Shown in pieces: positions 3,734-38,984 of a DNA stretch of 64,000 nucleotides; position 1 is the stretch's first letter; every line of letters starts with the position of its first letter. Source of the stretch: Halopseudomonas pelagia. GTDB lineage: Bacteria > Pseudomonadota > Gammaproteobacteria > Pseudomonadales > Pseudomonadaceae. Under the pieces are notes generated by a model. The model was not told the DNA's origin. It ran no database searches and saw nothing but the letters and a program-made list of their open reading frames with translations. The position numbers and the translations under genes are program-made. The stretch covers positions 248,001-312,000 of the forward strand of contig NZ_CP033116.1 in NCBI RefSeq assembly GCF_009497895.1. The letters are read 5' to 3'.

Positions 3734-4594
3734 ATGGTCAAGCCCCTCGTTCCGCCAAGACGCCGCTCCCTGCATGGCTTGATGCTGCCGGGCAATCTGC
3801 AGACCAATCACCTGTGTGACTGCCCGGATGGCGCATTGCCCGAGGTGATGCGCCTGCTGAGCTTCAATATTCAGGTGGGCATCAATACGCAGAAATACCA
3901 TCACTACCTGACCCGAAGCTGGCAGCACTTGCTCCCGCATAATGGCCGTCACCATACGCTGGGCGAGATTGGCAAAGTGCTGAATGACTTTGATCTGGTC
4001 GCACTGCAGGAAGTGGATGGCGGCAGCATGCGTTCGGGGTACGTCAACCAGGTCGAGCATCTGGCCCGTGAGGGTCAGTTCCCGTACTGGTATCAGCAGC
4101 TCAACCGCAACCTGGGGCGCTTTGCCCAGCACTCCAACGGTTTGCTTAGCCGTTATGCGCCGGAATTGCTGGAAGATCACAAGCTGCCAGGCTTCATGCC
4201 CGGCCGTGGCGCGATCCTGACCAGCTTTGGCAAGGGCAAGGACTCACTGCTGGTGGTGATGATGCATCTGGCGCTGAGTACCAAGGCCCGGGCCAACCAG
4301 TTGGCTTATATTCGCGAGCGGATCAGCGATCACAAGCATGTGGTGTTGATGGGCGACATGAATACCCACGCCGAAGATCTACTGGAACACTCCCCGTTAC
4401 GCGGCAGCAACCTGCACACAGCAACGCTGCCAGGCACCTACCCAAGCTGGAAACCGGCACGCGTGCTGGATCATATCCTGATCAGCCCGAGCCTGAGTAT
4501 TGAGCGGGTCGATGTACTGCCCAACGCCATTTCCGATCACTTGCCGGTCTCCATGCATATCCGGTTACCGCATGCATTGTGCAATCCTGGTTAA
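3734..4594 (+). CDS. Endonuclease/exonuclease/phosphatase (EEP) family hydrolase, PA5488-like
   Basis: The 286-residue protein belongs to the Mg-dependent EEP superfamily, which includes exonuclease III, DNase I and lipid or nucleotide phosphohydrolases. The fold's signature residues are visible: an early LLSFNIQVG, the catalytic-metal glutamate in LVALQEVDGG, the MGDMNTH segment (metal and phosphate ligands), and the C-terminal SDHLPV histidine motif. There is no signal peptide, so it is probably cytosolic. It starts 9 bases after the dsbA stop and is likely read with it. A gene of the same type sits at this place in P. aeruginosa (PA5488). Its substrate cannot be told from sequence. The first ~30 residues lie outside the fold, so a later start is possible. 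Confidence 0.85.
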   Translation: MVKPLVPPRRRSLHGLMLPGNLQTNHLCDCPDGALPEVMRLLSFNIQVGINTQKYHHYLTRSWQHLLPHNGRHHTLGEIGKVLNDFDLVALQEVDGGSMRSGYVNQVEHLAREGQFPYWYQQLNRNLGRFAQHSNGLLSRYAPELLEDHKLPGFMPGRGAILTSFGKGKDSLLVVMMHLALSTKARANQLAYIRERISDHKHVVLMGDMNTHAEDLLEHSPLRGSNLHTATLPGTYPSWKPARVLDHILISPSLSIERVDVLPNAISDHLPVSMHIRLPHALCNPG

Positions 4595-27763: not shown

Positions 27764-29539
27764 TCACAACGGCAGGGCCAGATAAAAATGCGCGCCCTGT
27801 CCGGGTTTGGACAGTACGCCCATATAACCGCCATGCAATTGCACGATTTCCTTGCATAGCGCCAGCCCCAGCCCAGCACCGCCTTTCTTGCCGCCGACCT
27901 GCACAAAGGGTTCAAATACCCGAGCCTGCTGGCTATAGGGAATACCCTCGCCGTTGTCTTCAACGCCGATGATCACACGCTCCGACTTGCGCCGCGCACG
28001 CAGCACTATCTTGCCGCCGCTGTCCGTGTGGCGCAGGGCGTTGCCGATCAGGTTGTCCAGCACGCGTTCAATCTGCAGCCGGTCCAGTTCGACCTTGGGT
28101 AACTCGCCTTCGGTTTCGATGGTGATGGAGATATCTCGCTCGCTTGCCTGTCCAGTAAACCGCTGCTGGGTATTAATCAGCAACGGCTCCAGATCACAGG
28201 GGGCCGGATCGATCTTCTGCAGACCGTTCTGATACCGCGAGAAATTCAGCAGATCGTTGATCAGCCGCACCAGACGACGCATCTCCTCGTCCACGGTGTT
28301 CATCAGATCCGATTCGCGGCTGCCGGGCTGCGCATTGGCGCCTTCCTGCAGCAGCGCAAAGGCCATATGCATCCCGGCCACCGGCGTGCGCAACTCGTGG
28401 GAAGCGCGCAACACGAACTCGCTGCGCACGCGCTCGAATGCACGTTGCTCGGTCACATCGCGCAGCACCATCACCGCGCAGACGAAATGCCCTTCGTTAT
28501 GAATAACCGAGGACAGGCTGTAGCTGAGCATACGGGTTTCACCATCGGCCTCGATCTGCAGATCCTGCTCGCCGTGCTCCTGATAATCATCCTGGAGCAG
28601 TTTGTGCAGCTGCTCATCCAACTCAGGCAAGCCGAGTACTTCACCTAGATGTAGACCCAGATGACTCTCATCACACCCCAACTGGCGCTGCGCTACCGGG
28701 TTGATATGTTCGATGCGCGCCGCGCAATCGAAGATCAGCAGGCCGTCGTCGATGCTGTCCAGCACCGCCTGCAGGCGTTTCTGCTCGGCTTGCAACGCGG
28801 CGATGTCGCTGTTGCGGAACTCTTCCAGCGAAGCGGCCATAAGCCCGAAACGCTTGGCCAGAGTCGACATTTCGGCGATCGGCGAAATCGGCAATACCAC
28901 CTTGAAATCGCCTTTACCGATGCGGTCGGCGGCCCTGGCCAATGACTCAATTGGCCGGCCGAAGCGCTGGGCGATGCTGTTGGCGGTAATCAGGCCGATC
29001 AGCAGTACCGCCACGGCGATCAAGCCCATCAGCCCAGCAACCAGCCAGGCCCGTTCGCGGGAGCTGTCTTCGGCCGCCTCCACCTGCGTCACGTAGCGCA
29101 TCTGCACAGCGCTGATGCGGTCACGCATGGCGTCCACCGCCCGACCAAACTGGTCGTTGCGCAGCAGCTCGCGGCGTACGGTAAAGGGCTCGCTGATCAA
29201 CAGGCTGTAGGTCGCGTAGGCATGCCGAATTTCCTCGGTTGCCTGTATATCAGCGTCATTCATCGCGCTGGAAGCGGCAGTGTCGAGCCAATTACGGAAG
29301 TGCGCATCAGAAGCCGCCAACGCATCGCGGTCCAGGTCTTCAGCCAGCAGCAGCGTCACCTGGCGACTCAATTCATGGCTGAGCCCCAGGGTTGCCTGAA
29401 TAATGCTCAGATTTCGCGTCATCGCGGTGTTCTGCGTCTTGGTCAGATGCAGCACACTGAACAGTCCCAACAGCAAGCCGACCACCGCGACCGTCAGCAG
29501 CGCGCTGCTGCTGAGGAACAACCGGCTGCGCAATTTCAT
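27764..29539 (-). CDS. kinB: Sensor histidine kinase KinB
   Basis: KinB is the membrane sensor paired with AlgB; in P. aeruginosa it acts mainly as an AlgB phosphatase and influences alginate, virulence and light or quorum responses. The 591-residue protein has TM1 (about 10-31), a periplasmic KinB sensor domain (about 32-163), TM2 (about 165-188), a HAMP domain (about 188-245), a PAS domain (about 250-365), and HisKA with H381 in RASHELRTP. The HATPase domain has N and G boxes (NLIGNALRHTD, DNGEGIP, GGAGLGLALC). The start overlaps the algB stop by 4 bases. N-terminal sequence and pairing support orthology. Confidence 0.93.
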   Translation of the reverse strand: MKLRSRLFLSSSALLTVAVVGLLLGLFSVLHLTKTQNTAMTRNLSIIQATLGLSHELSRQVTLLLAEDLDRDALAASDAHFRNWLDTAASSAMNDADIQATEEIRHAYATYSLLISEPFTVRRELLRNDQFGRAVDAMRDRISAVQMRYVTQVEAAEDSSRERAWLVAGLMGLIAVAVLLIGLITANSIAQRFGRPIESLARAADRIGKGDFKVVLPISPIAEMSTLAKRFGLMAASLEEFRNSDIAALQAEQKRLQAVLDSIDDGLLIFDCAARIEHINPVAQRQLGCDESHLGLHLGEVLGLPELDEQLHKLLQDDYQEHGEQDLQIEADGETRMLSYSLSSVIHNEGHFVCAVMVLRDVTEQRAFERVRSEFVLRASHELRTPVAGMHMAFALLQEGANAQPGSRESDLMNTVDEEMRRLVRLINDLLNFSRYQNGLQKIDPAPCDLEPLLINTQQRFTGQASERDISITIETEGELPKVELDRLQIERVLDNLIGNALRHTDSGGKIVLRARRKSERVIIGVEDNGEGIPYSQQARVFEPFVQVGGKKGGAGLGLALCKEIVQLHGGYMGVLSKPGQGAHFYLALPL

Positions 29540-30882
29540 AATGCCAACTGCTTGCGCTTGCGATACAAGGTGGAGGCGTCAATGCCGAGGGTTTTGGCGG
29601 CCTGATCCAGGGTTTCGCTGTTGGCCAATACTGCCGCGATATGCGCCCGCTCGAGCTCGTCGAGACTCAGCTCATCACCCACCCGCGGCGCACTGTTGAG
29701 TGCTGGACCGCTGAAACCCAGGTGACTGACCTGCACCTTGTCATCAGTACAGATAATGCTCGCACGCTCGATGACGTTGCGCAGTTCACGAATGTTGCCC
29801 GGCCATGAATAGGCTAGCAGCGCGGTCATGGCCTCTTCGGTGAAGCCCCGGGCCGGCGTGCTGTAGGCTTTGACGAAACGCAGCAGGAAGCGCTCTGCCA
29901 GCTCGGCAATATCTTCCACGCGCTCACGCAGCGGCAGCAATGTCAGGGTAATAACGTTCAAGCGGTAGAGCAGATCCTCGCGGAACCGGCCGTCGTCGAC
30001 CATATCCTTGAGGCTGCGGTTGGTCGCGGCAAGAATCCGTACATCCGCTTGACGGGTGACCGGATCGCCGACCCGTTCAAATTCCTTGTCCTGGATGAAA
30101 CGCAGCAACTTGGGTTGCAACGTAAGCGGGAAATCGCCGATCTCGTCGAGAAACAAGGTGCCGCCATCGGCTTGACTGACCCGCCCCAGTGTGTTTTCAC
30201 TGGCGCCGGTAAAAGCGCCCTTGGTATGACCAAAGAGCTCACTTTCCATCAGTTCCGAGGACAGCGAAGGGCAGTTAATGGTCACAAAGGACTTTTTCCC
30301 GCGCTGGCTCCACTTGTGCATGGCCTTGGCCAGCTCACCTTTGCCGGTACCGGACTCTCCAAGAATCAGGATATTGGCATCAGTAGACGCTACCTGCCGC
30401 GCTGTATCGAGAATCGCCATCATCGCTGGCGATCTTGAATCCAGGCCTTCCTGCGGCTTGCCCACCTGGCCCTCGAGCTGCTCGATACGCGCCACCAGCT
30501 GGCGGGCCTTGAGCTGCTTGGCCGCGCTCATGCGCAACTGCTCGGGGCTACAGGGCTTGACCAGATAATCCGAAGCACCGGCCTGAATGGCATCCACCGC
30601 GGTATCCACTGCCGAGTGCGCGGTCACTATAACCACCGCCATCCACGGCGCCAGCACGCGCATCTGTGCCAACACATCAAGGCCGCTGTCTTCACCCAGA
30701 CGCAGATCCAGAAAACACAGATCGAATACGTGCTGCTGTAGCAGGGCCTCGGCCTTGGAGGCCGAGTTGGCTGTGGATACCTGGTAGTTCTCATCTTCCA
30801 GGCAATAACGGAAAGTGCGCAAAATAGCTGATTCATCATCAACCAGAAGAATACGTCCGCAGGGTTGTTCCGCCGGTTCCAT
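29536..30882 (-). CDS. algB: NtrC-family response regulator AlgB
   Basis: The 448-residue activator has three parts: a receiver with phosphorylation site D59 (CFLDLRLGED), an AAA+ sigma-54 activator domain with Walker A GESGTGKG at 175-182 and the sigma-54 contact loop GAFTGA at 222-227, and a C-terminal Fis-type helix-turn-helix (LDQAAKTLGIDASTLYRKRKQLAL). The receiver is very close to P. aeruginosa AlgB as I remember it. I chose ATG 30882 because AGGAG lies 6 bases upstream; the open frame reaches 30972 through unrelated sequence. It is divergent from a BON-domain gene whose promoter region carries sigma-54 and enhancer-like elements. Confidence 0.94.
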   Translation of the reverse strand: MEPAEQPCGRILLVDDESAILRTFRYCLEDENYQVSTANSASKAEALLQQHVFDLCFLDLRLGEDSGLDVLAQMRVLAPWMAVVIVTAHSAVDTAVDAIQAGASDYLVKPCSPEQLRMSAAKQLKARQLVARIEQLEGQVGKPQEGLDSRSPAMMAILDTARQVASTDANILILGESGTGKGELAKAMHKWSQRGKKSFVTINCPSLSSELMESELFGHTKGAFTGASENTLGRVSQADGGTLFLDEIGDFPLTLQPKLLRFIQDKEFERVGDPVTRQADVRILAATNRSLKDMVDDGRFREDLLYRLNVITLTLLPLRERVEDIAELAERFLLRFVKAYSTPARGFTEEAMTALLAYSWPGNIRELRNVIERASIICTDDKVQVSHLGFSGPALNSAPRVGDELSLDELERAHIAAVLANSETLDQAAKTLGIDASTLYRKRKQLAL

Positions 30883-30922
30883 TTTCCGCTCCTGACCTCT
30901 TTCCGGAATTGCTTGTAAAAGT

Positions 30923-30968
30923 CGTGCAAGTTGCACGGCATCAAGACCGCGATCATGCAGCCTGCATG
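30923..30968. promoter_or_regulatory. Two 15-bp palindromes, candidate AlgB enhancer sites
   Basis: Site 1 is CGTGCAA-g-TTGCACG (30923-30937) and site 2 is CATGCAG-c-CTGCATG (30954-30968). Both have 7-bp arms, a 1-base centre and the same core, TGCA-N3-TGCA. Their centres are 31 bases apart, about three helical turns, so both would face the same side of the DNA. They lie 99 and 130 bases upstream of the start predicted from the sigma-54 promoter of the BON gene, the usual range for NtrC-type enhancers, and also sit 40-90 bases upstream of algB. Confidence 0.7.
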
Positions 30969-31032
30969 CCACCTAGTGCCAGCACTTTTTTGTATCTACC
31001 TGATTTATAACAGAATTAACTGATCTTTCAGG

Positions 31033-31048
31033 TTGGCACAGCGCTTGC
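31033..31048 (+). promoter_or_regulatory. Sigma-54 (-24/-12) promoter of the BON-domain gene
   Basis: TTGGCAC (31033-31039), five bases, TTGC (31045-31048). The -24 GG and -12 GC are separated by the required 10 bases, and the known consensus is TTGGCACGNNNNTTGCW. The predicted transcription start is near 31060, 46 bases before the ATG of the BON gene. Confidence 0.8.
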
Positions 31049-31105
31049 GACAGTATGGTACGACTGGGAAAACAGTCATTTTGCGATAAAAATTGGAGAA
31101 TAACG

Positions 31106-31942
31106 ATGTTCAAACTAAAAACTCTCGCCCTGGCCACTGCTACTGCCGGCATCATTGCCCTGTCCCCCATGACCGCTTTCGCTGACGACGGCGACACCAG
31201 CCGCCAGTTGAGTGAAGCCCGTCAAGAGGGTTCCGTGGTCACTGCTATCGCACTGAATCGCCACCTCAACCCCTTCAAGATTGACGTTGAAGTTGAAAAC
31301 GGCACTGCTGTACTGACCGGTGAAGTCGAAAGCGACGTTGATCGTGATCTGGCCGAACAAGTTGCCATGAGCGTTGATGGCGTACAGAAGGTCGACAACC
31401 AACTAACTGTTGATCGCGAAGCCGAGCGCAACGAGCACAACGACAAATCCATGACCCAGCGCTTTGACAACGCTACCACTACCGCCAGCGTGAAATCGCG
31501 TCTGCTGTGGAACAGCAACACTGAAGGTCTGGACATTAATGTCACCACCATGAACGGTGTCGTTACTCTCGAAGGTACCGCCCAATCTGAAGAAGCCAAG
31601 GAGTTGGCCGAGCGTCTGGCTGCCAATACCGATGGCGTGCGTGATGTAGAAAACAACATCACTGTTAATGCCAATGCCACGACTGCTGCCAAGGCGCAGA
31701 ACACGGCAGACGAAGCTGGTGAAGCTATCAGCGACGCCTGGATCACCAGCAAGGTGAAGTCTACCTTCCTGTTCAGTAACAACCTGGACGGTCTGGATAT
31801 CACGGTGGAAACCGAGAACGGTCAGGTCACCCTGAGCGGCACCGTCGCTACCGCAGCTGAGAAAGAGCTGGCAGTTGAGACCGCGCGCAACATTCGCGGT
31901 GTGACAGATGTAAACGCCTCTGCTCTGAACGTAGCGGGCTAA
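31106..31942 (+). CDS. Periplasmic protein with three BON domains (OsmY-like)
   Basis: The 278-residue product has a signal peptide (cleavage near AFA-DDG) and three BON repeats at about 35-105, 120-190 and 205-275. Each contains the glycine-centred pattern typical of BON, for example DVEVENGTAVLTGEVESDVDRDLAEQVAMSVDGVQKVDNQLTV. BON proteins such as OsmY bind phospholipid or act as periplasmic chaperones under osmotic and envelope stress. ATG 31106 follows GGAG at 31095-31098; the longer frame from 31055 runs through the promoter. It heads a set of three stress-type genes and is divergent from algB, whose product is a natural candidate for its activator. Confidence 0.9.
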   Translation: MFKLKTLALATATAGIIALSPMTAFADDGDTSRQLSEARQEGSVVTAIALNRHLNPFKIDVEVENGTAVLTGEVESDVDRDLAEQVAMSVDGVQKVDNQLTVDREAERNEHNDKSMTQRFDNATTTASVKSRLLWNSNTEGLDINVTTMNGVVTLEGTAQSEEAKELAERLAANTDGVRDVENNITVNANATTAAKAQNTADEAGEAISDAWITSKVKSTFLFSNNLDGLDITVETENGQVTLSGTVATAAEKELAVETARNIRGVTDVNASALNVAG

Positions 31943-31950
31943 GAACCAAA

Positions 31951-31974
31951 CCACCGGCCAATTCCGGCCGGTGG
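31951..31974 (+). terminator. GC-rich hairpin after the BON gene
   Basis: CCACCGGCC (31951-31959) and GGCCGGTGG (31966-31974) form a perfect 9-bp stem with a 6-base loop, 9 bases after the BON stop. No T tract follows, so it may stabilise the 3' end or give partial termination before the next gene. Confidence 0.5.
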
Positions 31975-32022
31975 CTGCCGTATTCGCCGCCACAAGCGAC
32001 GTGATGCACCTGGAGAATGACG

Positions 32023-32457
32023 ATGACGAACAAGACCGCACAACTGAATGAACTGATTGAAATCACCCGCGACGGACAGCGCTTCTATGAGCATGCACGT
32101 GAAGAGGTGAAGGATATCGGCTTGCAGAACCTGTTCAGTGACATGGTGCTGGCGAAAACCGAAGTGATCCAGGCGCTGTCGCTGAAAGTGGCGGCTAATC
32201 ATGAGCAGCCAGCCACGGGTGGCACCTTTGCCGGCAAATGCCGCCAGATCTATGCCGACACCCGTGCAATGATTTCCAGCGATGAAGATGCAACTTACAT
32301 CGCCCAATTGGAAGAAGCCGAGGACCGTATCCTTCACGCGTTTGAAGAAGCGCTGGAAGATTCCGAGGCGGATGTACGCACCTTGCTGGTTCTGGAAATG
32401 CCCAAAGTACGGGCTTGCCATGACCGCATGCGCGCACTGAAAAAAGCAACAGAGTAA
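32023..32457 (+). CDS. Four-helix-bundle protein, PA2169/DUF2383 family
   Basis: The 144-residue soluble protein is almost wholly helical and rich in E, D and K, with ferritin-like spacing of acidic and histidine residues (DGQRFYEHAREEVKD, YIAQLEEAEDRILHAFEEAL). It matches the PA2169-type four-helix-bundle family (DUF2383), whose members are induced by stress or low oxygen and have no assigned activity. ATG 32023 is chosen over 32017 because GGAG at 32012-32015 is 7 bases from the former and touches the latter. It follows the BON gene by 80 bases, so the two are possibly one unit. Confidence 0.83.
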   Translation: MTNKTAQLNELIEITRDGQRFYEHAREEVKDIGLQNLFSDMVLAKTEVIQALSLKVAANHEQPATGGTFAGKCRQIYADTRAMISSDEDATYIAQLEEAEDRILHAFEEALEDSEADVRTLLVLEMPKVRACHDRMRALKKATE

Positions 32458-32565
32458 TAGATGGGCAACACCAGGGCGGCCCAGGCGCAGTTGGCCTGAA
32501 GCAGCCTTAACGGCTGGTCCAGAGCTAGCCTGGCGGGGCATATGCCCTATTTAAGGAGAAACACT

Positions 32566-32730
32566 ATGCTGAGTTGGGCTGTTACATTCTTAATTATCGC
32601 CATCATCGCTGCGGTTCTGGGCTTTGGTGGCATTGCAGGCACCGCAACAGGGATTGCCAAGATCTTGTTCCTGGTCTTCCTGGTGCTCTTCGTGGTTTCG
32701 CTGATCCTGGGTCGACGACCTAAGGTTTAG
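32566..32730 (+). CDS. Small membrane protein, DUF1328 (YtjA family)
   Basis: This 54-residue protein consists of two hydrophobic helices joined by [14 protein letters not shown] and ends in the basic LGRRPKV. Length and sequence fit DUF1328, small inner membrane proteins often induced by envelope or osmotic stress. A good AAGGAG stands at 32553-32558, 7 bases before the ATG; the longer frame from 32542 contains that ribosome site. It is the third gene of the stress set after the BON and four-helix genes. Confidence 0.9.
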
Positions 32731-32749
32731 TAGCACCACAAAAAAACGC

Positions 32750-32811
32750 GCAAAACTCAAAAACCGCTTCCCTGGGGAGCGGTTTTTGCGCATCTGCAGT
32801 TTGAGTTTTGC
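32750..32811. terminator. Nested bidirectional terminator between convergent genes
   Basis: The inner stem AAAAACCGCT (32759-32768) with AGCGGTTTTT (32778-32787) gives A and T tracts on both strands and can stop transcription both ways. An outer pair, GCAAAACTCAAA (32750-32761) with TTTGAGTTTTGC (32800-32811), encloses it, so the region can form a larger stem or cruciform. The outer and inner left arms share a few bases, so the two forms compete. Confidence 0.85.
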
Positions 32812-32814
32812 TGG

Positions 32815-34233
32815 CTAGCCGGCAACCGGGGAAGCCGGGGCTCCAGCCAACGCGCGGTACACATTGACCATCGCCAACACCACTTGCGTCTCACTCTGCA
32901 CCCACCTGTCACGCATGGCGGTCAGCTCCTGCTCGGCGGCCAGCAGTTCGAAATAACCGATAAAGCCCTGGTCATAGCGGTCACGTGCCTGTTCTACCGC
33001 CTGGGTGGCGGCGTCAGTGGCGCTTTGCAGCAACGCTGCACGCTCTTGCGATTGCTGGTAGCGCAACAGCCAGGTTTCAGTCTCTTCCAGGGCCAGCAGC
33101 ACTGTCTGCCGGTAGTCGGCCAACAGCTCGGCGGACTGGGCATCAGCTGCATCAATGCGCGCCTGCACCTGGGCCCGGTCGAGGAAGCTCCAGTCAATCC
33201 CCAGCGCCACGCGTCCGGTGCTTGCGCCGCCAGTAAACAGGTCAGAGCCGTTGCCAGCCAGCGAACCTATCAGCCCGTCCAGGGTAAAGCGCGGGAACAG
33301 ATCAGCACTGGCCACGCCAATACGCGCACTGGCCGCCGCCAACCGCCGCTCGGCCGCCTGAATATCCGGACGTCGCCGCAGTACGTCGCCCGGGCTACCC
33401 GCCGCAATCGATGGATGGCTGTCAGGTAGATCTGCAGGAACATGCAGCAAAGGCACCAGTGCGGTAGGCGTTTGCCCGGTCAGCACGCCGATGCGGTGCA
33501 TTTCTGCGCCTATACCTGCTTTCAACTGCGGAATCACCGCTCGGGTAGCGTCCAACTGAGCGCGAGCCCGGACCTGATCGAACAGGGTGCCGCGGCCGGC
33601 ATCCAGGCGCGCACTGACAATATCCAGCGACGCCTGCTGTAAACCGACGTTCTCTTCAGCCACCCGCAGTTGTTGCTGCAGACCGCGCAGCTGGAAATAG
33701 CTGCTGGCCATCTGGCCTGCGAGCGCTACCTGCAAAGTCTGCCGGTCCGCGCCCGCCGCCTGCAGTTCGGCCTCACTGGCTTCAGTGGCGCGGCGCAGCC
33801 GCCCGAACAGGTCCAGTTCCCAGCTCAGCGCGACACCGGCCTGGTACAGCTCCACACTGCGCTCATCCGGTTGGGTGCGTTCCACTTCCGCCAGCCGCTG
33901 CCCAGCAACACCGGCGCCCGCCGTGACACTCGGCAACTGATCGCGGCGCGAGCCGCGCAGCAGTGCTTCAGCCTCCTGGTACCGCGCCAGCGCTGCCTGC
34001 AGGCTCTGGTTTTCAGCCAGGGTTTGCTCAATCAAGCCTGCCAACAGGGGGTCGTCAAACCCTTGCCAGAATAGCTGCTCATTGCTCGCCACAGCTGTGC
34101 CTGCGGTGTCAGCCGGCGCTTGATCGTGGGCGAACTGCTGCAACTGCACCGGCTCCGGGGCCTGGTAGTCCGGGCCGACTGCGCAGGCACCGAGCAGTGC
34201 AGCCATGGTAAAGAGTCCTGCCAGCTTACTCAT
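32815..34233 (-). CDS. RND efflux outer membrane lipoprotein (OprM/OprN family)
   Basis: This 472-residue outer membrane channel belongs to the TolC-like factor family. It has a lipoprotein signal (FTMAALLGAC, Cys17), then VGPDYQAPEPV, the usual opening. The two internal repeats are visible, including SWELDLFGRLRRATEASEAEL and GDVLRRRPDIQAAERRLAAASARIGVASADLFPRFTLDG. It exports drugs or solvents together with the inner membrane pump and adaptor upstream. The start overlaps the pump gene by 8 bases, so the genes are coupled. It ends 4 bases after the nested terminator region. The family is certain; the exact orthologue (OprN, OprJ and so on) is not. Confidence 0.92.
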   Translation of the reverse strand: MSKLAGLFTMAALLGACAVGPDYQAPEPVQLQQFAHDQAPADTAGTAVASNEQLFWQGFDDPLLAGLIEQTLAENQSLQAALARYQEAEALLRGSRRDQLPSVTAGAGVAGQRLAEVERTQPDERSVELYQAGVALSWELDLFGRLRRATEASEAELQAAGADRQTLQVALAGQMASSYFQLRGLQQQLRVAEENVGLQQASLDIVSARLDAGRGTLFDQVRARAQLDATRAVIPQLKAGIGAEMHRIGVLTGQTPTALVPLLHVPADLPDSHPSIAAGSPGDVLRRRPDIQAAERRLAAASARIGVASADLFPRFTLDGLIGSLAGNGSDLFTGGASTGRVALGIDWSFLDRAQVQARIDAADAQSAELLADYRQTVLLALEETETWLLRYQQSQERAALLQSATDAATQAVEQARDRYDQGFIGYFELLAAEQELTAMRDRWVQSETQVVLAMVNVYRALAGAPASPVAG

Positions 34234-37200
34234 GTGATTCTCCTTTCAGCGACCCTTTGGATTCTGCAACAGCCGTTTCCGGCTTACCCTCAAAGCGCTT
34301 GGCCAGCGTTCTCAGGGCAACATAGAACACCGGGGTCAGCAGCAGGCCGAACAGGGTCACACCGATCATCCCGGTAAACACCGTGATGCCCATGGCGTTG
34401 CGCACCTCGGCACCTGCGCCGGTTGCCAGCACCAGCGGTACGACACCGGCAATAAAGGCCACCGAGGTCATGATGATCGGGCGCAGACGCAGGCGGCTGG
34501 CCTCCAGTGCGGCGCTGACGGTATCGCGACCCTGCAATTCCAGTTCGCGAGCAAACTCGACGATCAGGATTGCGTTCTTGCATGCCAGCCCCATCAACAC
34601 CACCAGGCCCACCTGGACGAAGATGTTGTTGTCACCACCGACCATCCACACGCCGAACAAGGCGGCAAGCAAGCACATCGGCACGATCAGAATCACTGCC
34701 AGCGGCATCACCCAGCTTTCATACAGCGCCGCAAGCACCAGGAACACCAGCAGCAAGGCCAGCGGGAACACCACCATCGCCGCATTGCCCTGGGTTACCT
34801 GCTGGAAGCTCAGGTCGGTCCATTCCAGCGTCATGCCGGCTGGCAACACCTCGTCTGCTACGCCCATGACCGCAGCCAGGGTTTGCGACGACGACAGCAG
34901 GGTCGGGTCGGACTGGCCAATCAGGTCCGCCGCCGGATAGCCGTTGTAGCGGATCACCGGGTCTGGCCCGAAACTCTCGCGCAGCGTCACCATGGTATTG
35001 AGCGGGACCATCTCGTTATTCGCGTTACGCGTATAAAGGTGGTCGATGTCGCTTGGGTTATCGCGGAACTGCGCATCCGCCTGAGCCATGACCCGATAGG
35101 TACGGCCGAACAGATTGAAGTCGTTGATGTACTGCGAGCCAAAATACAGCTGCAGGCTGCCGAACAGATCATCCAGCTGCACGCCCTGGGCCTTGGCCTG
35201 CATACGGTCTACATCGGCATCCAGTTGCGGCACGTTGGCCTGGTAGGAGCTGAACGGGTAGAACATGCCGGGCGTCTCGCTCAGCGCCAGGGCCAGTTCG
35301 TTGGTGGCGTTCTGCAGTTCACCATAACCGGCGCCGCGACGATCCTGTACGTACAGCGAATACCCCGAACCCGCGCCCAGACCGAACACCGGCGGCGGCA
35401 TAAAGGTTATGGCGAAGCCTTCATTGATGCCGCCCAGCTGTGCGTTGATGTCATCGGAGATCGCCTGTGCGGTGCGGTCACGCACCTCGAAGTCATCGAA
35501 CACCATGAACACCGTACCCACGTTCGGCGTGTTGGTGCCCTGCAGCGCATTGAAGCCGACGAAGGCCAGCGCGTCAGATACGCCCTCCGTCTCCAGCGCC
35601 AGCTCACTGACCCGCCTTGCCACGGCTTCGGTACGATCCAGCGAAGCACCTTCCGGCAAACGGATACTACCGATCAGGTAAGTCTTGTCCTGAATCGGAA
35701 TAAAACCGCCAGGCACCTGGGTGAACATCAACGCAGTACCACCCAGCAGGAGTAGATAAACGCCAAAGACCAAGCCGCGTTTACTCAGGCTGCGACCGAC
35801 CAAGGATTCGTAGCGTTGCGCATTACGCTGGAAAAAGCGGTTGAACGGACGGAATATCCAGCCAAACAGGCGGTTGATAATGCGCGCCGGCAAATCCGGC
35901 GGAGCGCCATGCGGTTTCAACAACGCAGCCGCCAGCGCGGGCGAGAGGGTCAGCGAGTTGATCGCTGAAATCACCGTGGCAATGGCGATGGTCATGGCAA
36001 ACTGGCGGTAGAACTGCCCGGTAATGCCATCCAGAAAGGCCATCGGCACGAATACCGCACAGAGCACCAGACTGATGGCAACGATCGGCCCGCTGACCTC
36101 GCGCTTCGCCTGGTGCGCAGCCGCCAACGGTGCCAGCCCCTCCTCGATATTACGTTCGACGTTCTCCACCACCACGATGGCATCGTCCACCACGATACCA
36201 ATCGCCAGCACCATGGCAAACAGGGTCAGGGTGTTGATCGAAAAGCCCATCAGCAGCAAGACGGCAAAGGTACCGACAATCGATACCGGTACCGCCAGCA
36301 GCGGAATCAGCGACGCGCGCCAGGTCTGCAGAAACAGAATTACCACCAGCACGACCAGCGCGACGGCCTCGAGCAAGGTCATGATCACGGCCTTGATTGA
36401 GGTGCTGACGAACACGGTCGGGTCGTAAGCTACTTCCCAGCTCAAGCCCTCGGGGAAATCGCCCTCCAGCTCGGCCATTTTTGCCCGTACCGCAGCGGAC
36501 ACATCCAGAGAGTTAGAGCCGGGTGCCTGGAAGATCGGCAGGGCCACGGCCTGGCGGTTATTCAACAGCGCGCGCAAGGAGTCCTGCGACGCAGCCAGCT
36601 CAACCCGCGCCACATCCTTGAGCAGTGTGACCTCACCCTGCTCGCCGGTTTGCAACACGATATTCTCGAATTCCTCGACCGTCTCCAGGCGGCCCTGGGC
36701 GTTGATCGAGATCAGCAGATCCGAGCCATCCGGCATCGGCGGCGCGCCGATCTGTCCGGCGGAGACCTGGATGTTCTGCTCGCGTACCGCAGCGCTGATG
36801 TCACCAGCGGTCACGCCCAGCGCCGCAGCACGCTGCGGATCGATCCACAGGCGCATGGCATAGTCGCCAGAACCGAACAGGCCGGCCTGGCCGACACCGG
36901 GAATGCGTGCCAGCTCGTCACGAATATGCAGTACCGCGTAATTGCGGATATAGGTGGCATCCAGGCTGTCGTCCGGTGAGGTCAGATGCACCGCCATCAT
37001 CAGGTTGGGCGACTGCTTCTGGGTGGTGACGCCTAGCTGACGCACATCCTCCGGTAGCCGCGGCAACGCCTGGGATACCCGGTTCTGCACCTGCACCTGG
37101 GCCTGATCCGGGTCGGTACCCAGGGCAAAGGTCACGGTCAGCGCCAGGCTGCCATCACTGCCGGCCACCGATTTCATGTAGATCATGTCCTCGACGCCGT

Positions 37201-37414
37201 TAATGGCTTCTTCCAGCGGCGTGGCCACGGTCTCGGATATGGTCTTGGGGTTGGCGCCCGGATAGCTGGCGCTGACCAATACGCTGGGCGGCACCACTTC
37301 GGGGTACTCGCTGACCGGCAGCAGCGGAATGCTGATCAGCCCGACAACGAAGATGATGATCGACAGCACCGAGGCAAAGATCGGCCTGTCTACGAAGAAA
37401 CGCGAAAAATTCAC
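34226..37414 (-). CDS. mexF: RND efflux pump inner membrane transporter, MexF-like
   Basis: This is a 1062-residue proton-driven drug exporter of the HAE1 family. It has 12 membrane segments with two large periplasmic loops. TM4 carries the proton-relay acids in AIGIVVDDAIVVVENVER, and TM10 the matching lysine in GLACKNAILIVEFA. The N-terminus MNFSRFFVDRPIFASVLSII, the SEYPEVVPPSV segment and the length fit MexF more closely than MexB or MexD as I recall them. MexEF-OprN exports quinolones, chloramphenicol and quorum-sensing precursors in P. aeruginosa; the substrates here are unknown. An 82-base gap separates it from the adaptor gene. Confidence 0.93.
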   Translation of the reverse strand: MNFSRFFVDRPIFASVLSIIIFVVGLISIPLLPVSEYPEVVPPSVLVSASYPGANPKTISETVATPLEEAINGVEDMIYMKSVAGSDGSLALTVTFALGTDPDQAQVQVQNRVSQALPRLPEDVRQLGVTTQKQSPNLMMAVHLTSPDDSLDATYIRNYAVLHIRDELARIPGVGQAGLFGSGDYAMRLWIDPQRAAALGVTAGDISAAVREQNIQVSAGQIGAPPMPDGSDLLISINAQGRLETVEEFENIVLQTGEQGEVTLLKDVARVELAASQDSLRALLNNRQAVALPIFQAPGSNSLDVSAAVRAKMAELEGDFPEGLSWEVAYDPTVFVSTSIKAVIMTLLEAVALVVLVVILFLQTWRASLIPLLAVPVSIVGTFAVLLLMGFSINTLTLFAMVLAIGIVVDDAIVVVENVERNIEEGLAPLAAAHQAKREVSGPIVAISLVLCAVFVPMAFLDGITGQFYRQFAMTIAIATVISAINSLTLSPALAAALLKPHGAPPDLPARIINRLFGWIFRPFNRFFQRNAQRYESLVGRSLSKRGLVFGVYLLLLGGTALMFTQVPGGFIPIQDKTYLIGSIRLPEGASLDRTEAVARRVSELALETEGVSDALAFVGFNALQGTNTPNVGTVFMVFDDFEVRDRTAQAISDDINAQLGGINEGFAITFMPPPVFGLGAGSGYSLYVQDRRGAGYGELQNATNELALALSETPGMFYPFSSYQANVPQLDADVDRMQAKAQGVQLDDLFGSLQLYFGSQYINDFNLFGRTYRVMAQADAQFRDNPSDIDHLYTRNANNEMVPLNTMVTLRESFGPDPVIRYNGYPAADLIGQSDPTLLSSSQTLAAVMGVADEVLPAGMTLEWTDLSFQQVTQGNAAMVVFPLALLLVFLVLAALYESWVMPLAVILIVPMCLLAALFGVWMVGGDNNIFVQVGLVVLMGLACKNAILIVEFARELELQGRDTVSAALEASRLRLRPIIMTSVAFIAGVVPLVLATGAGAEVRNAMGITVFTGMIGVTLFGLLLTPVFYVALRTLAKRFEGKPETAVAESKGSLKGESHE

Positions 37415-37496
37415 GGCAACAGCCTCCCGGAACGCGTCCAGAAGGCGCGCCCGTATCAGTCAAATAAAGAAGAAGGTTAAATGGAGCGCTACTGCC

Positions 37497-38648
37497 TCAC
37501 GGCGCTGTCGCGACTACTATGGGTGCCTCGCCACGGCGCATATCTACCAGCTGCGGAACCACTTCAATGCCGGGGAATGCGATCTTCTGCAACCCGTTGA
37601 CCACCACGCGCTCGCCAGCGGCCAGCCCTTCGGTGATCACCAGCAGTCCATCAACCCGGCGGCCGGTTTCAACAATGCGGCGCTCGGCGCGATTGTCGGC
37701 ATCCAGCACATACAGGTAGCGGCGATCCTGATCGGTCATCACCGCTTTCTGATCCACCAGCAATGCGGCACTGGCCGAGGCCACCGGCATTTCTACCCGG
37801 GCAAACTGCCCCGGGCGCAGAGCGCCGTCCGGATTGGCTACCTGCGCGCGGTACTGCAGGGTGCCGGTGCGGCTGTTGTACTGGTTATCAACAAAGTCCA
37901 GCTGGCCTTCAAACGGAAAGTCCTGCCCGCCTGGCAGCCCGATGCGTACTGGCACGGCCTGACCGTGGGGGTTGTCCTGGGCGGTCTGCTGATCACTCTC
38001 GAAATAGACATAGAGCGGGTCGACCGATACCAACGTGGACAATAGCGTGGCATCTGCGCTGGCCAGATTGCCGCGAGTCACCTGGGCACGGCCGATACGA
38101 CCGCTGACCGGCGCCTTGACCTGGGTATATTCCAGATCCAGTTGCGCGCTTTGCAAGGACGCCGCAGCTGCATTGACTGCCGCCTGGGCCATGGTCTTCG
38201 CCGCGTTGCGCTGCTCGAACTCCTCACGGGAGATCGCTCGGCGCTCCCACAATTGCGCGGATCGCGCAGCCTCGCTGCTGGCCAGCGTCAACTGGCTGCG
38301 CATGCGCGCCAGTTCGGCCTGGGCCAGTTGCTCACGGGCTTTATAGGGCCGCGGGTCGATAACAAAGAGCACGTCGCCCTCGCTGACCAGTTCGCCCTCT
38401 TCAAAACCGACCTTATCTATATAGCCGCTGACGCGCGGCCGCAGTTCCACCGTTTGCGGTGCCTCAACGCGGCCGCTGAAGGCTCCCCACAGGGTTACAG
38501 GTTCAGCACGAACTTCGGCGACCTCAACCTCTGGCGGTGGGGGTGCAGCGGTGTTGTCCTGGCCTTGAGCATCGCAGCCGGCCATAACGGCCAGCAGCAG
38601 GGCGCCAAGCAGCGTCACTTTGGCGTCCTTGAAGGTGATTGCTTGCAT
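37497..38648 (-). CDS. mexE: RND efflux periplasmic adaptor, MexE-like
   Basis: The 383-residue membrane fusion protein links pump and outer channel. It has a lipoprotein signal (LLLAVMAGC, Cys near 22), then VTLWGAFSGRVEAPQTVELRPRVSGYIDKVGFEEGELVSEGDVLFVIDPRPY, the biotinyl-lipoyl-like half, a helical hairpin (REQLAQAELARMRSQL through AVNAAAASLQSAQLDLEYTQV), and beta-barrel and membrane-proximal parts to the end. The open frame reaches 38876, but the lipoprotein signal starts at ATG 38648. It is the first gene of the pump operon, divergent from the AraC-type regulator. Confidence 0.92.
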   Translation of the reverse strand: MQAITFKDAKVTLLGALLLAVMAGCDAQGQDNTAAPPPPEVEVAEVRAEPVTLWGAFSGRVEAPQTVELRPRVSGYIDKVGFEEGELVSEGDVLFVIDPRPYKAREQLAQAELARMRSQLTLASSEAARSAQLWERRAISREEFEQRNAAKTMAQAAVNAAAASLQSAQLDLEYTQVKAPVSGRIGRAQVTRGNLASADATLLSTLVSVDPLYVYFESDQQTAQDNPHGQAVPVRIGLPGGQDFPFEGQLDFVDNQYNSRTGTLQYRAQVANPDGALRPGQFARVEMPVASASAALLVDQKAVMTDQDRRYLYVLDADNRAERRIVETGRRVDGLLVITEGLAAGERVVVNGLQKIAFPGIEVVPQLVDMRRGEAPIVVATAP

Positions 38649-38984
38649 GTGGTTCTCACTTCCCATCGGGGTCACTGATCTTGATCGTTTACAGAAAGAC
38701 GCCGAGAGCGCCTTGGTAGAGCTAAACGATACGATCAGTGCGCTAACAGCGGGTAGCGCATTACTGCCATATGATTGCCTAATTCTATTTATCCAGAAAT
38801 AAGCAGTAACGGCGCCGTGCCCAAAACAGGTCATCGAGCCAAACGATTGCACCGTCATAGGGCCTGTTTCACGCATGTTTGCGCGATCCTGCGGGTTTAT
38901 TGCCTATTCCTGCAAAAGTAATACAAGCTTCATCTGCCTTACCTGATCCTGTATATACTACTTGCAAGCCTTTGGAGGTCAATC
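38649..38984. promoter_or_regulatory. 336-base divergent promoter region of mexE-like and araC-like genes
   Basis: There is no gene here. Three spaced inverted repeats stand out: TGCGCTA (38739-38745) with TAGCGCA (38754-38760); TTACTGC (38761-38767) with GCAGTAA (38803-38809); and AAACAGG (38824-38830) with CCTGTTT (38863-38869). The first two lie towards the pump operon and could be operator half-sites. On the regulator side, TATACT at 38954-38959 is a likely -10, without a good -35, and GGAGG at 38974-38978 is the ribosome site. I saw no nod-box of the kind MexT binds. Confidence 0.5.

Follow-up and report, generated by a model that had tools for sequence, protein, structure and literature searches.

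A predicted sigma54 promoter with two upstream palindromes lies between algB and a divergent gene for a protein with three BON stretches. From the sequence comparisons below, we consider it highly probable that KinB-AlgB controls this promoter, that the promoter drives the BON operon, and that both belong to a small regulon of the Pseudomonadaceae. The window (the whole 64-kb stretch of DNA that was analysed) comes from a genome of 4.55 Mb, and its features are listed in window coordinates in Table 1.

Table 1. Features of the interval between algB and the BON gene and of the flanking genes (window coordinates)
Feature	Position	Strand	Description
Operator 1, CGTGCAAGTTGCACG	30923-30937	none	15-bp palindrome, core TGCA-N3-TGCA; about 40 bp from the algB start codon
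Operator 2, CATGCAGCCTGCATG	30954-30968	none	15-bp palindrome, core TGCA-N3-TGCA
sigma54 -24/-12 element TTGGCAC-N5-TTGC, TTGGCACAGCGCTTGC	31033-31048	+	consensus match
3xBON protein, 278 aa	31106-31942	+	Pfam BON, three stretches; first gene of the putative target operon
12-bp stem-loop between the BON and DUF2383 genes	31949-31976	none	
DUF2383 protein, 146 aa	32017-32457	+	Pfam
DUF1328 small membrane protein, 54 aa	32566-32730	+	Pfam
algB, NtrC-family response regulator, 448 aa	29536-30882	-	Pfam; start at 30882
kinB, sensor kinase with KinB_sensor domain	27764-29539	-	Pfam; downstream of algB

The sigma54 consensus consists of -24 and -12 elements with GG and GC at the right spacing, and TTGGCACAGCGCTTGC has both. 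The near-consensus promoter claimed in the preliminary description was therefore present, and the twin palindromes that it had placed near -99 and -130 agreed in their exact positions, with centres 31 bp apart. As a rule of thumb, transcription starts about 12 bp past the GC of the -12 element; the start is accordingly predicted near 31060, which puts the operators at about -130 and -99. The divergent gene, described as algB with an intact GAFTGA loop, was likewise confirmed: Pfam recognized receiver, sigma54-activator and Fis-type HTH domains, and GAFTGA is intact in the translation. A scan of 30850-32850 found no sigma70 promoter, and the window scan gave no good match to an AlgU promoter (GAACTT-N16-TCTGA-like) upstream of algB, the best having three mismatches. 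We also considered a minus-strand sigma54 promoter (first base 30971) that would overlap operator 2 and face algB, and rejected it because it needs bases beyond the palindrome that are absent from a close relative (L006). The stem-loop behind the BON gene is not followed by a T-run on the plus strand and is therefore perhaps an attenuator or processing hairpin, not a terminator. Minus-strand open reading frames at 32815-38876, convergent with the BON operon, resemble by eye an RND efflux system (outer-membrane factor, pump and adaptor).

The arrangement is rare within its own genome. The TGCA-N3-TGCA core occurs three times in the window, two of these copies falling in the algB-BON interval; the third (4573-4583) has no adjoining -24/-12 element by a strict promoter scan. 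In the source genome, GTGCA-N3-TGCAC matched at two places, compared to one for the reversed-pattern control, and the operator followed by N60-90 and TGGCAC-N5-TTGC matched at one, compared to none for the control. Relaxing the promoter left this single match unchanged. A perfect twin palindrome at a spacing of 31 was also found at one place, the next best having two mismatches. A search for the core upstream of other genes of this genome had been suggested as a check; the operator-promoter arrangement was found at one place only.

Across the family, the pattern TGCA-N3-TGCA - N92-110 - TGGCAY-N5-YTGC was recovered from 205 of 298 genomes, some of which have up to six copies, compared to one match in each of two genomes for the reversed-pattern control. 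The AlgB-RpoN-BON unit had been proposed as one locus; the unit itself is supported, and its scope appears wider, pointing to a family-wide regulon. We read 60 chosen stretches with places from 41 chosen genomes, a non-random sample, and found a second operator within two mismatches at 109 of the 117 distinct sites. The offset of the second operator was 31 or 32 in 107 of these 109 sites, and the gap between operator and promoter was 96-98 in 99 of them, though 92-110 had been allowed. Paired, phased and conserved upstream dimer sites of this kind are what a bEBP-controlled promoter should carry. Averaging gave the operator C-N-TGCA-A-N-T-TGCA-N-G, for which the search itself had fixed the TGCA halves of operator 1.

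We examined how far the unit is conserved at BON operons. A BON match at E<=1e-20 was present in 151 of the 298 genomes, and 88 BON loci were read (L004-L091), with the lowest-scoring full-length and partial matches left out. Loci were scored with at most one mismatch per operator, a gap of 93-100 and a near-consensus promoter within 420 bp. Where algB adjoined the BON gene, the unit was found in 44 of 59 loci and failed the scoring in 15. Where it did not, the unit was found in 15 of 29, and all 15 genomes concerned carry algB elsewhere. Ten of the 14 non-adjacent loci without the unit are weaker BON relatives (42-47% identity); L078 (45% identity) comes from a 75%-complete genome, and L023, L028 and L030 (64-67% identity) come from genomes without algB, such that the unit was absent in all three genomes read with a close BON operon and no algB. 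Operator 1 was kept in five unit-failing loci (L069, L071, L072, L077 and L082), and in L080 and L084, beside algB and BON, the operator-promoter spacing was 12-14 bp shorter, roughly one helical turn. Neither feature was seen in the stretch scanned of further failing loci such as L049 and L050, and no promoter was found at L097/L045 (G202), where algB, BON and an operator are present. Absence from relatives with the same gene pair had been named as one observation that would count against the unit; it is conserved in most such loci, not in all.

The distribution of the pattern follows that of algB. Called at E<=1e-110, algB was present in 250 of the 298 genomes, and the pattern occurred in 200 of these 250 compared to 5 of the 48 genomes without algB (Fisher p 2e-20, phylogeny ignored). 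When algB status was permuted within genera, the corresponding count averaged 190.8 and never exceeded 198, compared to the 200 observed; none of 20000 permutations reached the observed value. Loss of sigma54 as the cause of the missing sites was rejected, since rpoN is present in all 48 algB-negative genomes. It is conceivable that the palindromes are bound by another NtrC-type activator and that algB just happens to lie beside them, as the genomes encode many NtrC-type proteins, 50 algB-positive genomes have no strict site and five algB-negative genomes have a match. We regard this as improbable: the sites vanish with algB within genera while rpoN stays, the unit adjoins algB even as the divergent gene changes, the palindrome is found again at algD (see below), and the five exceptions resolve into an algB cut by a contig end (G193, L007), genomes 75% and 73% complete (G208 and G250), and single matches without a convincing second operator (G006 and G073). 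Among the algB-positive genomes without a strict site, 20 of the 50 were inspected, chosen non-randomly by having their algB place listed, and 19 of these 20 have an algB-adjacent unit, mostly with one-mismatch operators, G013 being weak. In genus g17, none of three algB-positive genomes had a strict site. The unit is found together with algB and is missing where algB is missing, as expected of an AlgB target.

In the source genus, algB was found in 31 of 37 genomes, and 29 of the 30 algB loci fetched had the divergent unit; gaps of 84-100 were allowed and every unit found had a gap of 95-98. A contig search yielded at least 80 named algB loci, and we used the 60 with an AlgB identity of 75% or more; three of these carry no title beyond Gammaproteobacteria. 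By a strict test, the divergent unit was present in 48 of these 60 loci among the matches listed, compared to none of 3000 dinucleotide shuffles and 13 of 2390 other overlapping stretches. Seven passing places, which may be further real sites, did not fall in the usual interval: two are on the far side of kinB and five at a greater distance upstream of algB. The divergent gene itself varied: 3xBON, a 136-aa BON protein, DUF2383, DUF1328 with DUF3185, DUF1328 with an Ivy-like gene, or a small secreted protein. No unit was found in two Lysobacter-type loci (L317, L318) beside an AlgB of 58% identity, the HTH end of which is nearly identical. Single-operator matches that look like chance do exist (L174, L178, L181, L200, L202) and would suit a motif that arose by chance or an intergenic stretch conserved neutrally. 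The outcome of the shuffles, the two genomes matched by the reversed control and the recurrence at unrelated genes leave that reading with almost no probability.

A palindrome also lies close to algB. In 30 of 30 loci of the source genus it was perfect and began 41-74 bp away from where the algB match starts, and among the named loci listed it was found within one mismatch, 41-63 bp from algB, in 54 of 59, compared to 16 of 1180 shuffles. Operator 1 also serves as this algB-proximal palindrome, which would allow AlgB to act back on algB; we consider that operator 1 probably mediates algB autoregulation, in either direction. The earlier proposal that AlgB controls itself is thus supported by a conserved operator close to the algB start. 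One could argue that the AlgB palindromes serve algB only and that an activator acting from elsewhere drives the BON promoter, given that the algB-proximal palindrome persists at loci whose paired operators are more distant from algB. This seems very improbable to us, as paired operators stand at a fixed distance from many promoters away from algB, including those of BON operons. In many species (L260-L316), the algB-proximal palindrome has the sequence CGGGCAAGTTGCATG, with a conserved TTAGT stretch on its algB side. On the algB strand, palindromes of the CGGGCAAGTTGCATG type show AACTT-N16/17-ACTAA, perhaps an AlgU-like promoter under the operator. AlgU is described as controlling algB in P. 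aeruginosa (PMC13001231).

We assigned the first gene behind each of the 117 sites by BLAST to chosen representatives, with the VF class assigned by its C-terminal letters. The most frequent class was a small secreted protein ending in VF (39/117), often followed by a small membrane protein ending in FDPVLR, and then came one-BON proteins (29/117), DUF3509 (14/117), DUF2383 (11/117), 3xBON (7/117), DUF1328 (6/117) and the 136-aa BON protein (4/117), with 7/117 outside all classes. In L124, L130, L139, L187 and L243, the secreted protein ends in (W)VF, and the membrane protein that often follows ends in GR(K/R)IKFDPVLR. Pfam on ten target representatives recognized BON (2), DUF2383, DUF3509 (2), DUF3185 and Ivy; no Pfam family was found for three of the ten, the secreted/membrane pair and the L237 protein. 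The nature of the targets may point to the envelope-stress circuit that had been suggested: by eye, the BON, Ivy, DUF1328 and DUF3185 proteins and the secreted/membrane pair look periplasmic or membrane-bound. In addition, blocking lipoprotein transport in P. aeruginosa reportedly raised algB about 5-fold and kinB about 4-fold (PMC7685553), which fits an envelope signal; the alginate response to that block is described as AlgU-dependent (PMC7685553) and says nothing on the regulon. Against an envelope-stress role, DUF2383 and DUF3509 have no known function or evident signal peptide and no inducer is known, so that the AlgB-sigma54 regulon might be real and serve general stationary-phase or small-protein functions, a reading we hold to be unlikely, though deserving some weight.

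AlgB has been described as binding the algD promoter directly (PMC9431422, PMC10418997). Its control of algD is described as RpoN-dependent (PMC4064291), with RpoN-dependent effects on algD and algW mentioned in reviews (PMC4064291, PMC13001231). An AlgB SELEX motif would seem to exist, judging from the text of PMC8041468. We collected 18 algD promoters, all from chosen genomes in which the exporter match is strong, and found 15 perfect palindromes in 8 of them and none in the other 10, whereas mononucleotide shuffles had 0.26 on average and at most 2; the motif is thus common to the known AlgB-bound promoter in 8 of the 18. Genus g8 contributed five genomes with a pair of perfect palindromes at a distance of exactly 102 bp, followed downstream by an AlgU-type promoter; the P. 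aeruginosa-like G126 is one of the five. The published AlgB-bound region reportedly lies about 224-274 bp upstream of the algD start, and the distal palindrome in G126 is estimated to lie near -246. Among the algD palindrome pairs (L340, L342-L345, L355, L356), those of two genomes outside the 102-bp group are 22-23 bp apart. Compared with KinB-AlgB at P. aeruginosa algD, the regulator is the same and the palindrome is found in algD promoters of P. aeruginosa-like genomes, whereas the algB-BON locus has palindromes 31 bp apart, a sigma54 promoter and small-protein targets. Linkage to algB, loss with algB, fixed spacing and a palindrome common to algD promoters together strongly support the AlgB-RpoN-BON unit of the preliminary description.

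The unit also occurs in lineages where a strong alginate-exporter match is lacking. The source genome has a weak alginate-exporter family match (E 4e-9), and the 56 genomes of genus g15 have no exporter match below 1e-10, compared to about 1e-75 to 1e-134 in many others; sites were present in 55 of 55 algB-positive members of g15. Exporter matches of 1e-64 to 1e-82 were found in 8 of the 37 genomes of the source genus, two of which (G144 and G199) have no algB. The lack of a strong exporter match suggests that alginate is not made, and alginate does not seem to be required for the regulon.

In G126, a DUF1328 gene and, behind it, an Ivy-like gene are divergent from algB (the homologue in G288 was used for the Pfam search). 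There is a palindrome near algB, and by eye two degenerate copies precede TGGCATGAGGCGTGC by about 109 and 78 bp. Elsewhere, this genome has two strict sites: one precedes a one-BON gene (L221), the other the gene of a small protein with a C-terminal TF (L197). PA5482-PA5481 is described as an operon of unknown function (PMC4981712) and PA5481 as Ivyp2 (PMC10746161), and the G126 pair is likely its counterpart. The resemblance lies in a DUF1328 - Ivy-like pair divergent from algB with a sigma54-like element; the differences are that DUF1328 and Ivy replace BON - DUF2383 - DUF1328 and that the paired operators of G126 are degenerate.

We infer AlgB binding, activation, looping, the operon structure and an envelope role, with the dimer, ring and looping steps drawn by analogy with NtrC-type activators. 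AlgB dimers would bind the two palindromes, three helical turns apart on one face of the helix, and assemble on these paired operators into an active ring. Across about 100 bp, DNA looping would bring AlgB into contact with the sigma54-RNA polymerase bound to the -24/-12 element, the GAFTGA ATPase of AlgB would open the promoter, and 3xBON - DUF2383 - DUF1328 would be transcribed as an operon. Paired operators and promoter of this kind would define a small regulon in most algB-positive Pseudomonadaceae. The unit resembles NtrC/glnA-type units in its NtrC-family activator and in a pair of dimer sites that precede a sigma54 promoter by about 100-140 bp, but the TGCA half-sites of the AlgB locus are 3 bp apart, while NtrC sites have a wider half-site spacing. 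A review describes unphosphorylated AlgB as acting at algD (PMC10418997), and reports differ on whether phosphorylation of AlgB helps (PMC10418997, PMC13001231).

AlgB is a long-studied regulator of mucoidy, and in the open-licence full-text literature we found no description of an AlgB operator or AlgB regulon of this kind, nor a promoter set with defined AlgB operators; the family-wide regulon appears undescribed there, although parts may be known. The twin-palindrome promoter recurs across the family before small proteins that are for the most part secreted or membrane-bound, so AlgB probably runs an overlooked envelope gene set. We lean slightly towards the proposal that the original task of KinB-AlgB was a sigma54 regulon of small envelope proteins (BON, Ivy, DUF1328, DUF2383, DUF3509 and the secreted/membrane pair) acting through paired TGCA-N3-TGCA operators, and that alginate control arose via operators upstream of the algD AlgU promoter. 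A defined operator and a compact conserved regulon make the sigma54 role of AlgB directly testable and offer a candidate regulatory setting for several DUF families and the small secreted/membrane protein pair. The regulon could also explain why algB is retained in lineages without a strong alginate-exporter match.
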